A stretch of 64,000 nt of DNA from Bacteroidales bacterium (GTDB lineage: Bacteria > Bacteroidota > Bacteroidia > Bacteroidales > UBA3824): positions 62,001 to 126,000 of the forward strand of contig JAEERW010000003.1 in assembly GCA_016286055.1 (NCBI GenBank), written 5' to 3'. This document shows positions 4,188 through 44,211 of the stretch, piece by piece. Below the pieces are notes generated by a model. The model was not told the DNA's origin. It saw only the letters and a program-made list of their open reading frames with translations, and searched no databases. Each line of letters opens with the position of its first letter. Position 1 is the stretch's first letter. A program made the position numbers and the translations under genes.

Positions 4188-5135
4188 TTAGTCGAGGCAA
4201 AGGCCTCCGTTGTTAGCCATCATTATGAGTTTGTGGTATGTTTCGGGATCGGTGTCCTCGAAAAAGAAGTCTATCGGGTTGATAGCCTTGCCGTTGTAGT
4301 TGATTTGGTAATGCAGGTGAGCGGTAAGCGACTTGCCAGAGTTGCCCACAAAACCGATAGTTTCGCCGCGTTTAATCTTTTTGCCAGTGCGCACCACATA
4401 GTCGCTGAGGTGCGAGTAGGTGGTTTTAAAACCGTTTTTGTGGTCGATAATCACCATTACACCGTGGTCGCGTTTTTCGCCCACGTATTCCACAGTGCCA
4501 GCTGCGGTGGCAACCACCACGGTACCCTTGGGAGCGGCAAAGTCGATTCCCTTGTGCACTTGCGGAGTCTTGTAAATGGGGTCGAGTTTTTTTCCGTAGC
4601 CATAGGCGAGGTATTGAAGATTATTGTTTTCCAACGGCATCACCGATGGAATATATTTTAAACTGTCGGTTTGCTTTTCAAGAATTGCAAAGAGGTTGTT
4701 TACAGTGCTGTCCTCGTTGTGAAGCATAGCGGCAACGTTGTTTGTGGTTTTGGTATAGTGAGCGGCAATTTCACTTGCTCCCAAACTATCGTAGTTGTAT
4801 TCGAGCGAATCATCGTCAACGGGTGGCGCTGTGCTGAAAATAGCGCGATATATTTCGCGGTCACGGTCTTGGAGGTCGCTCAATACGATAGAGGTTTGGC
4901 TGTAACGTTCGTTGAGTTGGTCGTAAACCTGACGGAGCATTTCGTTTTCGCGTTCGGTTTTGCGTTGACTAGGGGTTTTAATGGTGTATGAAATAGTGAT
5001 AAAAACCACAAAGCCAATGCTCAAAGCAGCAAACAGCTGAGTGATTATAGATATTATTATTTTTTTGCCTTTTTTCTTGTCCGTTTCCTCAAAAGAGAGC
5101 GAATCGGGGTCGAATGTGTATTTATCGTCTGACAT
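4188..5135 (-). CDS. M23 family metallopeptidase, membrane anchored
   Basis: A 315-residue protein predicted to cut peptidoglycan cross-links or serve as a divisome-type activator in the periplasm. Residues about 28-50 form one transmembrane helix after a charged cytoplasmic start, residues 60-180 are largely helical, and the C-terminal M23 (LytM) domain has HKGIDFAAPKGT (HxxxD zinc ligands) and HLHYQI (HxH). Both zinc motifs are complete, so it is probably active. I take the start at 5135 (MSDDKYTFD) because an upstream Met ten codons earlier adds an unlikely sequence and the family begins this way. It is followed after 28 bases by the MerR-like gene. Confidence 0.9.
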   Translation of the reverse strand: MSDDKYTFDPDSLSFEETDKKKGKKIIISIITQLFAALSIGFVVFITISYTIKTPSQRKTERENEMLRQVYDQLNERYSQTSIVLSDLQDRDREIYRAIFSTAPPVDDDSLEYNYDSLGASEIAAHYTKTTNNVAAMLHNEDSTVNNLFAILEKQTDSLKYIPSVMPLENNNLQYLAYGYGKKLDPIYKTPQVHKGIDFAAPKGTVVVATAAGTVEYVGEKRDHGVMVIIDHKNGFKTTYSHLSDYVVRTGKKIKRGETIGFVGNSGKSLTAHLHYQINYNGKAINPIDFFFEDTDPETYHKLIMMANNGGLCLD

Positions 5136-14864: not shown

Positions 14865-14887
14865 GGCTTAACGATACTATACTATTA

Positions 14888-32210: not shown

Positions 32211-34139
32211 ATGGAATATTCGGGCAAGATATTATGTGCAACACACGCGGAACTTGCGGCGGTATTAACCGATAGCAACATCAAGGCTATGCGCAGCCGT
32301 GGCGTATTACAGCAAGTGCGCCGCGCCTGCCCGGGTTATGCCGCGCTGTTTGCCGTTGACACTCTGCCCGAAAAGTACAAGAAACAAGTTTTAGCCATTT
32401 ATCCTATGCCCGACAAAGAGATACAGAGCAATTTTGCCATTGTGCCCGACTGCGAGGCGGTGAGGTTTTTCGACACCTTTATATTAGACGACGGCAGGCA
32501 TCTGCCCGAACCCAAGCGCAACGAGCTTGCCAACAATGCCGCCATACTCAACGCTCTTGGCAGGATGCTTGAACAGTCGGACACGTTAAACCTAAAAATA
32601 GGTCGCAAGGTGATAAACCGCACCGACTTTTGGCAACGTGCAGCGCAGCACCTTCAAACCATTTCAGAAAACCATTCGTTGCCACGCAACGCTCGTATGC
32701 TTCAACGTAAATTCAACGATTACCGCGAAAACGGCTACACCGCGCTAATTGGCAGCAAGTGGGGCAACGGCAACGCCGCCAAGGTAAAAGACGACCTTTC
32801 GATCAGCACCCTCACACAGTTGCTTGCCATAAGCAACAACCTCAACAACGCACAGGTGGCAGCCGCTTACAACCAATACGCCGCCGCCAACGGATGGAAG
32901 CCCATCACCGATGGCACGGTGGCATTATGGCGTACAAAAACCGACCTCACAACTTCGGCGGCAAGGCGTGGCACTTCAAACTTCTTTAACGAAAAAGCAA
33001 TGACAGTAAAGCGCAGCCGTCCATCGGCACCGTTCCTGATGTGGAGTTTAGACGGTTGGGACTGTGAGTTGCTATATCAAGACACCAAAAACGGACGCAC
33101 CACATATTACAACCGCGTAGTGTTGGAGGTGGTGTTAGACCCGGTTAACGATTATATAATAGGTTACGCCATTGGTTTGCAAGAGGATGCCGCCCTTATT
33201 ACCCGCGCCATCAAAAACGCGTTGACACATTCGCAGCAACTATTTGGCAGTATGCACCGCACCAACCAGATACAGAGCGACCATTTTGCGATGAGTGCGA
33301 TGCGTCCTGTGTATGCCGCCGTTGCCGACAAGGTAACGCCCGCACGTGTGGGCAATGCCAAGAGCAAGCCGATAGAGAGGTTTTTCAACTATTTGAACCG
33401 TACATATTGCCAGATGTGCAGCAATTGGAGCGGCTTTGGCGTTACCACCGACCCTACAAAACAGCCCAACTCAGAGGCAATGAACCTAAGGAAAAAAGGT
33501 TTTCCCGACTATGAAGGACTTGTGGCACAGATAGACGCAATGATAGCCGCCGACCGTGCCAAAAAACAGGCTGAGTTTGTGGCTATGTATGCCAACCTTG
33601 CCGACGAGCACCGATTGGAAATGCCACGCACCGAATATCTCCGCATATTTGGCGAAACCACCGGCCACACCAACCGACTTGCCGCCACAGGTCTAACGCC
33701 CACAATACTTGGCAAAAAACGCGAGTACGACTGTTTTGACATCAAGTTCCGTGAGTTGGCATTTACCGATTGGACAGTGAAATACGACCCCGACGACCTT
33801 AGAACAATATTAGCAGTTAACGAAGACAGCACACAGGCTTTTCTTTTGGAGGAGAAATACATCCAACCAATGGCACTTGCCGACCGCAAAGAGGGAGATG
33901 CCGAACAGTTGCAGCGAATCCGCGACTACAACAAAGAACTACACGACCATGTGGTAGACAACCTTGCCTATACTGCCGACAACGTGGCAAAGATTGTACG
34001 CCTGCCTCAATCATACGACGTGCTCAGCCGCCTTATGCTAACCGACAGCACCGGTGACCACAAGACCAACAAAAAGAGAGCTGCGCTATCAGCCGCATCG
34101 CCCGACCCGCCACCCGATCCCGATTATGATATGTTTTAG
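32211..34139 (+). CDS. Mu-type DDE transposase (MuA-like)
   Basis: A 642-residue integrase-fold transposase that cuts and joins the prophage ends. Catalytic acids are Asp281 (SLDGWD), Asp357 (QSDHF) and Glu389 (KPIERFFNYLN), spaced 32 residues apart as expected for D-D-E enzymes. The N-terminal 270 residues hold DNA-binding regions (for example RNARMLQRKFNDYRENG, a typical Mu-type winged region), and the tail (about 440-642) contains the core beta-barrel part and a C-terminal basic/proline segment likely to contact the MuB-like ATPase. The gene is complete. It is encoded directly after the small DNA-binding gene. Confidence 0.93.
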   Translation: MEYSGKILCATHAELAAVLTDSNIKAMRSRGVLQQVRRACPGYAALFAVDTLPEKYKKQVLAIYPMPDKEIQSNFAIVPDCEAVRFFDTFILDDGRHLPEPKRNELANNAAILNALGRMLEQSDTLNLKIGRKVINRTDFWQRAAQHLQTISENHSLPRNARMLQRKFNDYRENGYTALIGSKWGNGNAAKVKDDLSISTLTQLLAISNNLNNAQVAAAYNQYAAANGWKPITDGTVALWRTKTDLTTSAARRGTSNFFNEKAMTVKRSRPSAPFLMWSLDGWDCELLYQDTKNGRTTYYNRVVLEVVLDPVNDYIIGYAIGLQEDAALITRAIKNALTHSQQLFGSMHRTNQIQSDHFAMSAMRPVYAAVADKVTPARVGNAKSKPIERFFNYLNRTYCQMCSNWSGFGVTTDPTKQPNSEAMNLRKKGFPDYEGLVAQIDAMIAADRAKKQAEFVAMYANLADEHRLEMPRTEYLRIFGETTGHTNRLAATGLTPTILGKKREYDCFDIKFRELAFTDWTVKYDPDDLRTILAVNEDSTQAFLLEEKYIQPMALADRKEGDAEQLQRIRDYNKELHDHVVDNLAYTADNVAKIVRLPQSYDVLSRLMLTDSTGDHKTNKKRAALSAASPDPPPDPDYDMF

Positions 34140-34236: not shown

Positions 34237-35079
34237 ATGGAAAATACAGAAAAAATTATCAATGCCTTGAAGCAGTTTGTAACGCTCAAAGGCAGTCAGA
34301 ACAAAGCAGCCACCGCACTCGGCATATCGGCTGCAACACTCAGCAAAATCCTCAACGGCAAAACCGACGACATTGCCGACGAAATGTGGCGCATATTGGC
34401 AGCCAAGACCGGCTCAACCGGCAAACGCCAATGGTTTACCGCTCAAACAGGCTCGTACAATCAACTGATGTTTGTATTTGCCAACGCCCAAAACGATGCG
34501 CTTGCCTGTGCCGTATGTGGCGAGGCGGGCTGTGGCAAGAGCACCGCCGCCGCCGAATACGCATCCACCCACGAAAACGTTGCGCTACTCACCTGTGCTG
34601 AGTATTGGAACAAACGCCAGTTCTTGTCGGCATTGCTGTCATCGTACGGCATAGGCAGCGACGGTCTTTCGGTGGGTGAAATGATGGACACCGCAGTGGA
34701 GAACATCAAACGTATGGAAAACCCACTTGTAATCCTCGACGAAGCCGACAAACTCTCCGACAGCGTACTCTACTTTTTTATAACCCTTTACAATCAATTA
34801 GAAGATTGCGCCGGGCTTGTGCTGATGGCCACCGACTTTTTGAAAAAGCGCATCGAAAAGGGTGTAAAGAACTGTAAGAAGGGTTACAAAGAAATCTACT
34901 CGCGCATAGGTCGCAAATTTATCTGCATACTCGCCGCCGGCAGAGAAGATGTGGCAGCCGCCTGTGCTGCCAATTCGCTAACCGACGAAAAAGAAATCAA
35001 CCGTATATACGCCGATTGTCAAGGTGATTTCCGCCGAGTAAAACGCGCTGTATGGGCAACACTTAAAAAGGCAGCTTAG
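34237..35079 (+). CDS. MuB-like AAA ATPase for target DNA capture
   Basis: A 280-residue ATPase. The N-terminal 70 residues carry a helix-turn-helix (GSQNKAATALGISAATLSKIL), as in MuB. Walker A is CGEAGCGKSTAAAEY (near residue 95), Walker B is PLVILDEADKLSD (near 164), and a sensor region follows (LVLMATDFLKKRIEKG). In Mu, MuB selects target DNA and activates the transposase. It follows the transposase gene after a spacer of about 100 bases, the expected order. Confidence 0.9.
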   Translation: MENTEKIINALKQFVTLKGSQNKAATALGISAATLSKILNGKTDDIADEMWRILAAKTGSTGKRQWFTAQTGSYNQLMFVFANAQNDALACAVCGEAGCGKSTAAAEYASTHENVALLTCAEYWNKRQFLSALLSSYGIGSDGLSVGEMMDTAVENIKRMENPLVILDEADKLSDSVLYFFITLYNQLEDCAGLVLMATDFLKKRIEKGVKNCKKGYKEIYSRIGRKFICILAAGREDVAAACAANSLTDEKEINRIYADCQGDFRRVKRAVWATLKKAA

Positions 35080-41182: not shown

Positions 41183-41500
41183 TTATTCGTTATCGATTTT
41201 TTTTTCGAGACGTTCGAGCACCACGGCAAAGCGGTTGAGAGCGGCGGCGTTATCTTTAAGCGCAGCGGCATTTTCTTTGGCTGCCACGGTGCTTTCTTTG
41301 AGCGTGCCTGTAATTTCGACGTTAGACATCTGAATATACGAGATGTATTGGTCGCGGATTTTGATAGATTCAGCCACGGTTTCGCGGTTGCTCTTTTCGT
41401 TAGATTTGTACATTTTCCACATGGCATATCCCATCACGATAACCATAGCGGTGGGAAACCCGAAGGTGGAGAAAATGTTTATGATTTCAGTGGTTTCCAT
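41183..41500 (-). CDS. Holin-like membrane protein (UviB/BhlA type)
   Basis: A 105-residue protein with one N-terminal transmembrane helix (about residues 7-28, IFSTFGFPTAMVIVMGYAMW) and a long charged coiled coil. This layout is typical of UviB/BhlA holin-like proteins. It is encoded just upstream of the tape measure. It could instead be a coiled-coil tail accessory protein; no endolysin was found beside it. Confidence 0.55.
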   Translation of the reverse strand: METTEIINIFSTFGFPTAMVIVMGYAMWKMYKSNEKSNRETVAESIKIRDQYISYIQMSNVEITGTLKESTVAAKENAAALKDNAAALNRFAVVLERLEKKIDNE

Positions 41501-41575: not shown

Positions 41576-41640
41576 GATGCCAATTGCGGCGTATTCGATT
41601 AACGCCAGAAAGGTGATGTTCCCATTTTTTTGCGATTTTA

Positions 41641-41669
41641 TTTGTTGTTAATAAATTTTTGTATATTTG
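41641..41669 (+). promoter_or_regulatory. Promoter P1 of the putative small RNA
   Basis: TTTG (41641-41644), 17 bases, TATATTTG (41662-41669). Transcription is expected to begin about 5 bases downstream, at the start of the sequence complementary to the KilA-N start region. Confidence 0.65.
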
Positions 41670-41674
41670 CGGCA

Positions 41675-41738
41675 TAATAAAACGCTTAGCGGGGTGGTTC
41701 CCGCGCACCGAGGCTTATTTGCAAGTCTCGGTTTTTTG
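41675..41738 (+). ncRNA. Putative c4-like antisense small RNA for the KilA-N gene
   Basis: About 64 nt. Its 5' end ATAATAAAACGCTT (41674-41687) is perfectly complementary to AAGCGTTTTATTAT (41769-41782), which includes the start codon of the KilA-N gene. A hairpin GCGGG/CCCGC (41689-41704) and a 10-bp terminator stem with one G-U pair (ACCGAGGCTT / AAGTCTCGGT, 41707-41732) plus six T follow. Phage P1 c4 RNA controls the ant antirepressor from the same relative position. Inferred from sequence only. Confidence 0.55.
41707..41737 (+). terminator. Terminator within the KilA-N leader
   Basis: Stem 41707-41716 with 41723-41732, six-base loop, T run to 41737. The -33 box of promoter P2 lies in its loop region. 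Confidence 0.8.
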
Positions 41739-41749
41739 TTTTATCTTTG
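41718..41749 (+). promoter_or_regulatory. Promoter P2 of the KilA-N gene
   Basis: TTTG (41718-41721), 20 bases, TATCTTTG (41742-41749); start about 25 bases before the ATG. A transcript from P2 would lack the antisense segment. Confidence 0.6.
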
Positions 41750-41780
41750 CGGTATTGTTAAACCATTAAAGCGTTTTATT

Positions 41781-42425
41781 ATGACATCAGATAATTCTAA
41801 CATTCTATCCGCCATTGTTGACGGCATTTCTATCGACTATCAGCGTGAATCAAACAACTGCCGTGTAAATCTTACCAAGATGGCTAAACCGTTTGGTAAA
41901 CAGACAGCCGATTGGTTAAGACAAGAATCGACACAAGAATACTTAACTGCCTTACAGCGTATCGTTGTGCGTCATGGGAATTCCCATAACGTTGTGCCAC
42001 TGATAGATATAAAACAAGGTGGCAATGTTGCCGAAATCGAACAAGGAACTTGGGCAACCGACTACCGTATAGCCATGCGTTTTGCTCAATGGTTAAGTCC
42101 TGAGTTTAGTATCAAGGTTGATGAGTTGCTCGTTAAGATAGTATCTGGTGAGTTAATGATAAGCGGGATCGGTGTAAAGATAGATACCAAAGGGCAAACT
42201 TGGATAAGTCGTGCGCGATTCTGTAAAGCACTTGGTGTGTCGGAACATTCGTTTAATGGTCTTATGAGTACTTACAAACAGCATTTCGCACAAATCGGCG
42301 GTTTTTGGTACGTTAGTTCCGAACTGTTTAAACTGCGTTCTGTACAACAATATATAGATAGCCGCAAAAATGAGGTAAAGAAAACTGCCCCTGATGTTAC
42401 GCAACTTTCTCTCAATTTTGAATAG
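41781..42425 (+). CDS. KilA-N domain protein (antirepressor-like)
   Basis: A 214-residue DNA-binding protein. The KilA-N domain spans about residues 15-120 (NCRVNLTKMAKPFGKQTADWLR; TDYRIAMRFAQWLSPEFSIKVDELL), and the C-terminal part (about 140-195) has a winged-helix-like SRARFCKALGVSEHSFNGL segment as in phage antirepressors. I place the start at the ATG at 41781; upstream in-frame codons lie in the structured leader. It is on the plus strand within the minus-strand late block and is AT-rich, so it was probably acquired. It may counter the repressor or regulate accessory genes. Confidence 0.85.
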   Translation: MTSDNSNILSAIVDGISIDYQRESNNCRVNLTKMAKPFGKQTADWLRQESTQEYLTALQRIVVRHGNSHNVVPLIDIKQGGNVAEIEQGTWATDYRIAMRFAQWLSPEFSIKVDELLVKIVSGELMISGIGVKIDTKGQTWISRARFCKALGVSEHSFNGLMSTYKQHFAQIGGFWYVSSELFKLRSVQQYIDSRKNEVKKTAPDVTQLSLNFE

Positions 42426-42428
42426 TTT

Positions 42429-42459
42429 TTTGTTTTTTATCATAACCTTCTTATATTTG
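42429..42459 (+). promoter_or_regulatory. Consensus promoter of the 58-residue gene
   Basis: TTTG (42429-42432), 19 bases, TATATTTG (42452-42459): a full match to the Bacteroidetes consensus, 41 bases before the ATG. Confidence 0.75.
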
Positions 42460-42500: not shown

Positions 42501-42677
42501 ATGACCACTAATCAGAATATTGCATCAGAAATAGAAAAGGCTCTTCCTCCCGAATTGCAAACAAATCAAGAAGGATTTGAACCCGGGTTGGATTTGTCTG
42601 CATCTGAAATTGAGGATGTTATTAAATTTATGCAAGAAGATTTAGGTATAACTAATCCTCTTGCTCCTATAAAATAA
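42501..42677 (+). CDS. Small acidic protein, candidate immunity protein of the MuF toxin
   Basis: A 58-residue gene too short for routine calling. It is acidic (11 Asp/Glu against 3 Lys) and has SASEIEDVIKFMQEDLG near the end. It has a full consensus promoter and its last 11 bases overlap the 3' end of the MuF gene on the other strand. Acidity, location at the toxin-domain end and separate promoter fit an immunity or antitoxin protein, but no known family is recognised. Confidence 0.55.
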   Translation: MTTNQNIASEIEKALPPELQTNQEGFEPGLDLSASEIEDVIKFMQEDLGITNPLAPIK

Positions 42678-44211
42678 TCTCCGCAAACCAAGAAGATTTA
42701 GACAATACACTTTGTGCCCATTTGTATTCTAAAAACATACACATAGGAAAGGGGTCATCTTTTGTACGATTTTTATGTTTGCTATTATCATAATAATCGT
42801 CAATGATTTTTATTGCTCTTTCGTCTGTTATATTCATTATACTCGCTCGATTTTTTGCATTAGCAATCGAAGCCCAAGCATATCCTCCTGCCTTATCTGC
42901 CAAGAAATATACTTTTGATACGCCTATCATCTTAGCGTTCGAAATTAAGAATTTCGTTATATTAGTACCTAAACCTTGTTTTTGGTACTTTTCTAATATT
43001 CTAATACTGTCAAGTTTATTAGTTATAATACCCTTATTGTCTATGTAATGAATTAACATTTTAATCGGTTCGCCGGAAATTGTTAAAGCCACTTGTTTGC
43101 TAAGAATATTTAGCGAAAACTTCTGTGAATTCTCGATATTTAATGATTTTAAATTGTCGAGGATAAAATTTTCAATTTTAGCAAAATCAATTTTCTTTAT
43201 ACAATCCATTAATAAAGGAGAAACATCTTTTTTTGTTTTAAGTTCAACCTCCCAATTTTCTGCACCTTTTAATTCTCTTTTTATTTGTGTTGATTTAATA
43301 TATCTCTTATATTCCTCATTACCTTCTTGACACGCTGCACATTGTGGATTTATCGCCAATTGTTTTGGTGTGCCATTACACCTCTGACATTGGCTCATAA
43401 AATACGGATGGCCTTTGGGGAAGATAACACCTTTTTTGCCGACGTTGACTTGAAACATGGGGGCTACTTTGCAGTGCTTTAAATCCATATCCGGCGTTTC
43501 TTTGTGGTTTTTGCCGGGCAGTTGGATAACCTCGCAGCGGCAACCCCAACCGTTTGGCGGATAGTATTTGTCCCAAAAGTCAGAATCTATGCGTTTGATT
43601 ACTCCATTAAGCGCAGCGTGTTCGGGTCGGGTGTTGGAATCCATCACGGCTTGATATTGGAGATATGGCATAGATTGGGACAGGGAAACTTGCTCAGTCC
43701 AACGCGCTGCACATTGCGAAGCGGCAACGGCGTGGTTGTATTCGGTGCGCAACCAATTGCCATTGTATTGAAGGTTCATTTTGTCAACCTCTTTTTGAAA
43801 GTCGGAGAAAGAGCGTAGTTTGCCGTCGGTATCTTTAAGGGCAAGGGTCATATCTTGCAAGATGTGAAAATCTTTTGATGCCGAAAATTGGAATACGTTT
43901 TCGGTGAGTTTGCGAAGCGTGTTGAAGTCGGGCGTATCGTAGTCTACATCTGAGAGCGATTTGCCGTAGCCTGTTGTCATAGCGGTTAACAAGGTGGTGG
44001 CAGTAGAGGCTAACAGTTCGGGGTCGTAGGTGATACGTTCGCCTTTGAATATGCGCTTGGCAAGATTGTTGACAATGCCGGAGAGCCTATTTTGTGGCGG
44101 CAGTTCTGCGTTGGCTTGGGCAGAACTGCCTAACAAAAATTTTTGTAGAGAGGTGTGGGTGTTGATTTTTGTTTGCCGGTGATGGGGACGTTGAAGGTTT
44201 GGGCAAGCCAT
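42667..44211 (-). CDS. MuF-like minor head protein with GNAT-like C-terminal extension
   Basis: Up to 514 residues. The first 300 carry the MuF/SPP1 gp7 head-morphogenesis domain (WLRTEYNHAVAASQCAARW; AALNGVIKRID; PPNGWGCRCEV) and a Cys cluster (CQRCNG, CAACQEG). The last 200 are encoded by visibly more AT-rich DNA and read like an acetyltransferase: strand MLIHYIDNKG, then YQKQGLGTNITKFLI with the acetyl-CoA motif Q-x-x-G-x-G (about residues 410-415). This fits a MuF polymorphic toxin delivered with the virion. The start is uncertain, as the frame overlaps the portal gene by 82 bases; a TTG within the overlap could be used. Confidence 0.75.
   Translation of the reverse strand: MACPNLQRPHHRQTKINTHTSLQKFLLGSSAQANAELPPQNRLSGIVNNLAKRIFKGERITYDPELLASTATTLLTAMTTGYGKSLSDVDYDTPDFNTLRKLTENVFQFSASKDFHILQDMTLALKDTDGKLRSFSDFQKEVDKMNLQYNGNWLRTEYNHAVAASQCAARWTEQVSLSQSMPYLQYQAVMDSNTRPEHAALNGVIKRIDSDFWDKYYPPNGWGCRCEVIQLPGKNHKETPDMDLKHCKVAPMFQVNVGKKGVIFPKGHPYFMSQCQRCNGTPKQLAINPQCAACQEGNEEYKRYIKSTQIKRELKGAENWEVELKTKKDVSPLLMDCIKKIDFAKIENFILDNLKSLNIENSQKFSLNILSKQVALTISGEPIKMLIHYIDNKGIITNKLDSIRILEKYQKQGLGTNITKFLISNAKMIGVSKVYFLADKAGGYAWASIANAKNRASIMNITDERAIKIIDDYYDNSKHKNRTKDDPFPMCMFLEYKWAQSVLSKSSWFAEIIL

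Follow-up and report, generated by a model that had tools for sequence, protein, structure and literature searches.

How might a KilA-N gene that is reversed relative to the late operon around it be controlled? The window, the whole 64 kb stretch of DNA analysed here (G000:C5:62001-126000), contains a Mu-like prophage whose minus strand carries the tape measure and minor head genes. The KilA-N gene and a small acidic ORF lie on the plus strand, in reversed orientation within this late operon, and KilA-N would face antisense transcription from it. The complementarity described below suggests that KilA-N is probably kept off by a short RNA that binds the start of its message. The genes of the prophage to which the text refers are the following.

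32211-34139: transposase (phrog_310 match)
34237-35079: AAA ATPase, in the MuB position of the prophage
41183-41500, minus strand: 105-aa ORF, flanking the KilA-N and 58-aa ORF pair on one side
41781-42425, plus strand: KilA-N gene, 214 aa
42501-42677, plus strand: 58-aa acidic ORF with its own promoter (match at 42429), second gene of the KilA-N cassette
42667-44211, minus strand: minor head gene, flanking the pair on the other side

A DNA search of phage records matched nothing, and a protein search matched 30 records, every one at less than 60% identity.

The KilA-N gene and its small neighbor

The 214-aa protein matches the Pfam KilA-N domain (PF04383) at 1e-17, with 64.3 bits against a cut-off of 23.8, and phrog_129, a transcriptional regulator, at 2e-18. 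All of its matches are limited to KilA-N and "transcriptional regulator" families, and "antirepressor" would be a label by analogy. The protein model has a pLDDT of 82, and among viral proteins its fold is matched best by a phage KilA-N protein; a fold search of the PDB found no solved structure with an E value of 0.001 or lower. The 58-aa ORF has no family match. Pairwise comparison identified relatives downstream of KilA-N in two other genomes, G008 (37% over 35 aa, E 4e-4) and G016 (85%), and it is possible that the ORF encodes a partner protein of KilA-N.

Anatomy of the predicted antisense RNA unit

The region immediately upstream of KilA-N, together with its start codon, contains the following elements.

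41641-41669, plus strand: promoter P1, with TTTG at 41641-41644, N17 and a perfect -7 box TATATTTG at 41662-41669
41673-41738, plus strand: predicted antisense small RNA of about 65 nt, spanning P1 to the terminator U tract
41673-41687, plus strand: antisense segment, largely unpaired in the predicted fold
41689-41704, plus strand: hairpin 1 of the predicted fold; the sequence is not conserved and a different hairpin lies at this place in G008
41707-41737, plus strand: intrinsic terminator, stem 41707-41716/41723-41732, T6 at 41732-41737
41718-41749, plus strand: promoter P2, with TTTG at 41718-41721, an N20 spacer and TATCTTTG at 41742-41749
41769-41783, plus strand: antisense target in the KilA-N leader and start codon, including the full ATG at 41781-41783

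Two promoters, two hairpins and a terminator had been described in the initial annotation, and all of them can be located in the sequence, with P1 having a short spacer. Both promoter calls follow a consensus that we take to be of the Bacteroidota type. P1-like promoters in the corresponding region of related prophages have spacers of N19-20 as against N17 in the window. The strict pattern TTTG-N18-21-TAnnTTTG has 11 matches in the window compared with a mean of 2.3 in shuffled windows; these include P2 but not P1, because the TTTG of P1 is only 17 nt from its -7 box. The fold of 41674-41742 has a predicted energy of -25.4 kcal/mol (z -3.7), and none of 200 shuffles was equally stable.

A feature that goes beyond the initial annotation is the overlap of P2 with the terminator. 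The TTTG of P2, its -33 box, lies in the terminator loop (41717-41722), its spacer is made up of the 3' arm and the U tract, and the -7 box follows. With up to 3 mismatches, the terminator/P2/leader pattern is found in 2 of 59 genomes, the one from which the window comes (the host genome) and G008. Matches to the terminator/P2 stretch elsewhere in the genus (L035, L045, L044, L026) showed no antisense layout when inspected by eye. Viral contigs searched with exact patterns of the site and of the terminator/P2 block contained neither, and in 11 distant KilA-N loci that were checked no TAnnTTTG box lies in the 140 nt preceding the ATG.

Pairing with the KilA-N start

The segment CATAATAAAACGCTT (41673-41687) is perfectly complementary to AAGCGTTTTATTATG (41769-41783) over 15 nt. 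The initial annotation had reported this perfect match over the start codon with a length of 14 nt; the match is indeed perfect and covers the ATG, but is one nucleotide longer. When both segments were dinucleotide-shuffled 5,000 times, the longest match was 13 nt and a match of 14 nt or more never arose. When the window was scanned on both strands, in 5-nt steps, for matches of the same geometry, lengths of 15 nt or more were otherwise seen only in two short-loop hairpins, at 14887 and 30399. The duplex of the window RNA with the leader has a predicted energy of -28.7 kcal/mol, and 1 of 1,000 shuffles was as good.

Possible targets were ranked among 196 ORF starts in the window (ATG, at least 50 codons) and 52 in the G008 stretch, with the four best by length listed. 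In both loci the longest perfect non-self match is the KilA-N start. In the window it is 15 nt long, and the runners-up are a U-rich match of 12 and then one of 11. By duplex energy, the ORF start at 5135 on the minus strand (-32.0) is better than KilA-N (-28.7).

The orthologous locus in the same genus

Relatives of the KilA-N protein (E 0.001) are present in 3 of the 59 genomes, namely the host genome, G016 and G008. At the class level, 4 of 395 genomes, host included, have a KilA-N at 1e-20, and in the three of four further class-level KilA-N loci that were checked by eye the window layout was not seen. Viral contigs searched with the G008 protein gave no relative. The C-terminal part of KilA-N in G016 (L011 1-1866, G016:C14) is fused to another reading frame, and the upstream RNA unit is absent there. 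G008, from the same genus, is the only other intact locus of this layout that was found. Its KilA-N is 42% identical and occupies the corresponding position in a related prophage, flanked by a minor head gene on one side and, on the other, by a 193-aa ORF followed by an ORF of the 105-aa type and the tape measure; a small acidic ORF lies downstream.

G008 keeps P1, the terminator, P2 and the pairing, although the paired letters differ. The initial annotation had made its case depend on pairing being conserved in related phages, and here it is conserved despite the changed letters. P2 is nested in the terminator as in the window (spacer N19), and the terminator stem has stayed paired despite one two-sided change and three one-sided ones. 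The G008 P1 RNA forms 26 pairs with its own leader in three stretches; the whole RNA-leader duplex is predicted at -31.5 kcal/mol, with 1 of 1,000 shuffles as good. The longest perfect run is 10 nt and falls within the leader instead of covering the ATG; runs of at least 10 nt occurred in 84 of 5,000 shuffles. Each RNA is predicted to pair better with its own leader (-18.3 and -11.3 kcal/mol) than with the swapped one (-5.9 and -4.8). RNAalifold on the window and G008 pair did not recover the long-range pairing, and a covariation statistic is not available for this layout since there are only two sequences.

Comparison with known RNA families

The C4 RNA of phages P1 and P7 (RF01695; c4-a1b1 RF03163) is similar to the window RNA in that it lies just upstream of the gene it controls, runs in the same direction and is antisense to the start that follows. 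It differs in being cut, as a cruciform of three stems, out of a longer transcript in which the a1/b1 copies and icd-ant are also present. Processing of C4 from the longer P1/P7 transcript has been attributed to RNase P (PMC5320573). In the phage P1 annotation, together with the model match, C4 is flanked by the a1/b1 and a2/b2 targets. The window RNA has two simple, separate hairpins in place of an outer stem that encloses two hairpins and an exposed a' segment. Its antisense segment is at the 5' end, it has no target copy (the second arm of the repeat occurs only at the KilA-N start), and it has a terminator and a separate P2. What it has in common with C4 is its complementarity to the start of the phage gene that follows. 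No C4 or c4-2 was found in the window at the Rfam cut-off, nor in 41600-41850 at E up to 10, whereas phage P1 RNA, used as a control, matches the C4 model at 68.8 bits. An Rfam search of the window and of ten relative loci, with matches taken at cut-off, detected a single tRNA and no regulatory RNA.

The range given for C4 in Table 1 of PMC2864571 is Proteobacteria and phages, and the relevant section of PMC5320573 names proteobacterial orders and Caudovirales. The c4-2 RNA (RF02944) belongs to the C4 clan and is present in Bacteroidia; the window unit differs from it in having neither the cruciform nor the 5' sense copy. Among 295 class genomes, c4-2 is above cut-off in two, one of them the host genome (G000:C30:40160-40236, L146, 68.8 bits), and C4-clan RNAs are therefore present in Bacteroidia. 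The other genome, G159, has six such RNAs (L145, L149-L153). At several c4-2 loci, inspection by eye showed that the RNA is preceded by what is nearly a copy of the next gene's start region.

A weak match of the window RNA to the DUF3800-I RNA (RF02969) was rejected, with 20.6 bits against a cut-off of 44.2 (E 0.49) and a downstream gene that encodes KilA-N, not DUF3800. RNA-OUT of IS10 and the plasmid antisense RNAs are short, block a start region and are encoded on the strand opposite their target. The window RNA and its target, in contrast, share the same direction and arise from an inverted repeat. Literature searches found no paper that links KilA-N to an antisense or small RNA together with Bacteroid or antirepressor and none on a c4-like antisense RNA in prophages; a search for c4-2 RNA gave unrelated matches only. 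The text available for PMC12135933, on a Bacteroides transposable phage, has no occurrence of small RNA or KilA.

Distant KilA-N loci with C4-topology RNAs

Apart from the window and G008, 28 regions upstream of KilA-N genes, some of them near-duplicates, were inspected by eye and six were picked (L001, L002, L015, L055, L063, L064). L015 is from a Prolixibacteraceae genome and the other five are viral contigs; a TAnnTTTG box lies upstream in five of the six. Each combines an outer stem resembling a terminator with an inner GGTG/CACC stem, a pair of hairpins and a segment left exposed (folds were computed for three), a topology shared with the phage P1 C4 RNA. In the six-locus consensus 9 of 19 pairs have two-sided changes, and the outer stem covaries.

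The exposed segment matches its own KilA-N start over 10, 9, 9, 11, 7 and 8 nt in L001, L002, L015, L055, L063 and L064, and shuffles did as well in 0, 5, 11, 0, 6 and 11 cases per 2,000, respectively. A sense copy near the 5' end is clear in L002, L015 and L055 (0 of 2,000 shuffles) and weak in L001, L063 and L064 (53, 131 and 610 of 2,000). When the six RNAs were compared with all six starts by longest match, the own start was best in all six rows and in five of six columns, with one column tied. By energy the own start was favored in four of six, with one tie, and L015 preferred another. An energy scan of the six without restriction on position was matched by 1 (its own terminator stem), 27, 43, 8, 22 and 64 of 100 shuffles. 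The same kind of scan over 15 KilA-N loci has little power, and only L006, L057 and L001 (the last with its own terminator stem) were matched by 2 or fewer of 100 shuffles.

Variations in layout were observed among the remaining loci. L007, which is similar with its 5' half absent and a different motif, and L003, whose match is identical to that of L015, were left out of the counts. L004, L006, L014, L057/L058 and L060 have other layouts, and of the five scanned only L006 (2/100) and L057 (0/100) stand out from shuffles. A third layout, with a long upstream RNA partly complementary to the KilA-N start region, was noticed in L006, L014, L057 and L060. No such RNA unit was seen by eye in L016 and L017.

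The RNA of L064 matches the c4-2 model weakly, at 28.7 bits (cut-off 41, E 3e-4), and the L002 and L055 stretches gave nothing C4-like in Rfam at E 10. No Rfam cut-off was reached by L001, L002 and L015 searched whole at cut-off or by the L002, L055 and L064 stretches at E 10. The KilA-N-associated C4-topology RNAs may form a divergent C4-clan branch close to c4-2. The C4-like control proposed in the initial annotation is thus supported in its core, through the antisense match to the KilA-N start, the pairing kept in G008 and the six distant loci, but not as membership of the C4 family, given the lack of a model match, of the cruciform and of a1/b1.

P1 as a possible small-RNA slot

The presence of P1 in relatives that lack KilA-N also goes beyond the initial annotation. 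A search with the 105-aa gene returned 24 loci, and 16 of these plus the window were scanned over 1.5 kb to the right. P1 is present in the corresponding region of 8 of the 17. Of the eight, the window and G008 have KilA-N, another five show different short terminated RNAs immediately after P1, and in the last (L097) the contig ends too early for classification. In L099 the end of the head gene comes next after the P1 RNA. Among 17 genus genomes, 13 have the P1 pattern of the relatives (up to 3 mismatches); this number excludes the P1 of the window and that of G008, which depart from the pattern by an insertion or deletion. The window P1 stretch aligns with G015 at 88%. The P1 RNAs found apart from KilA-N in five contigs have no non-self start-codon match longer than 10 nt among the ORF starts of their own contigs, and for a tRNA-like P1 RNA in a sixth contig (G011) the best start match is 8 nt. 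P1 seems, from these comparisons, to be older in the prophages than its link to KilA-N, and the variety of what follows it suggests fast change of small RNAs at one prophage place.

Several observations were made in passing. In L090, L091, L094, L096, L099 and L113-L133 a conserved promoter is followed by very different short terminated RNAs. Some inner sequences recur in L122, L124 and L127 with different outer stems. ARAGORN calls a tRNA-Tyr directly after a P1-like promoter at L127 1539-1615 (G011:C201), which Rfam at cut-off does not confirm, and L115 has a tRNA T-arm-like stretch behind such a promoter. To the right of the 105-aa gene in G012:C64 (L093) there is a different two-gene cassette, a 271-aa gene, which we take to be DinD/BRO-like, and a 66-aa acidic ORF, with a promoter-like sequence ahead of each.

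Proposed mechanism and alternatives

The comparisons of sequence lend good support to antisense control of KilA-N, and the unit 41641-41783 is likely to be an antisense-RNA switch for this gene. P1 would make an RNA of about 65 nt that ends at the terminator, and the KilA-N mRNA would start at P2 and so be free of the antisense segment. The 5' segment of the small RNA is predicted to pair with the KilA-N leader and start codon, which would block ribosome binding. Because P2 straddles the terminator, transcription from P1 would run into P2. Any mRNA that reads through from P1 may silence itself in cis through this pairing, according to the fold predicted for the window. Expression of KilA-N would stay low while P1 is active because of antisense pairing and P1/P2 interference, and would be released once transcription from P2 exceeds that from P1 or the small RNA disappears.

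Could the pairing act only in cis? Free RNA would then be scarce, the 5' end of the read-through transcript would hide the start codon, and the P2 mRNA alone would be translated. The predicted fold of the window transcript from P1 to KilA-N, with its 15-bp stem over the start codon, agrees with this; a strong terminator intervenes, however, and the predicted minimum-energy fold for G008 lacks the long-range pairing, so that we consider a purely cis-acting unit unlikely. It is less probable still that P1 is a general small-RNA slot with its main targets elsewhere and the KilA-N match as a by-product. In its favor, prophages that lack KilA-N do have P1-type promoters in the corresponding region with different terminated RNAs behind them, a P1-like copy elsewhere lies ahead of a tRNA-like RNA, and duplex energy ranks another ORF start of the window above KilA-N. 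Against it, the match to KilA-N exceeds all other perfect non-self matches in length in each of the two loci, and cognate pairs bind more strongly than swapped ones.

The perfect 15-bp arms on either side of P2 could also act at the DNA level, as an invertible promoter or a two-site operator, and invertible promoters are common in Bacteroidales. The arms are, however, 81 bp apart, no inverted form is present in the two copies seen, and the repeat that is perfect in the window is broken in G008, with unequal gaps, unlike a recombination site; we regard this explanation as very improbable. An ordinary terminator and promoter with complementarity arising by chance would be the least probable explanation. 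A terminator followed by a promoter does exist elsewhere in the genus, for example in L044, but the shuffle tests and the conservation argue against chance.

Within the antisense switch, a more specific picture may be proposed tentatively. The terminator would double as part of the promoter of the target, so that each P1 transcript would both supply the silencer and occlude P2, and the unit would be set in a fast-changing small-RNA slot of Bacteroidales Mu-like prophages, where different lineages hold different RNAs and only some are tied to KilA-N.

Implications

C4-like antisense control was already known; what is new here is the compact nested promoter/terminator design and the variable small-RNA slot. 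If the proposed switch is correct, C4-type antisense control of phage regulators extends to Mu-like prophages of gut Bacteroidales, in a very small architecture. Several phage KilA-N genes would then be tied to antisense RNAs directed at their start codons, and their role in lysogeny would become directly testable.
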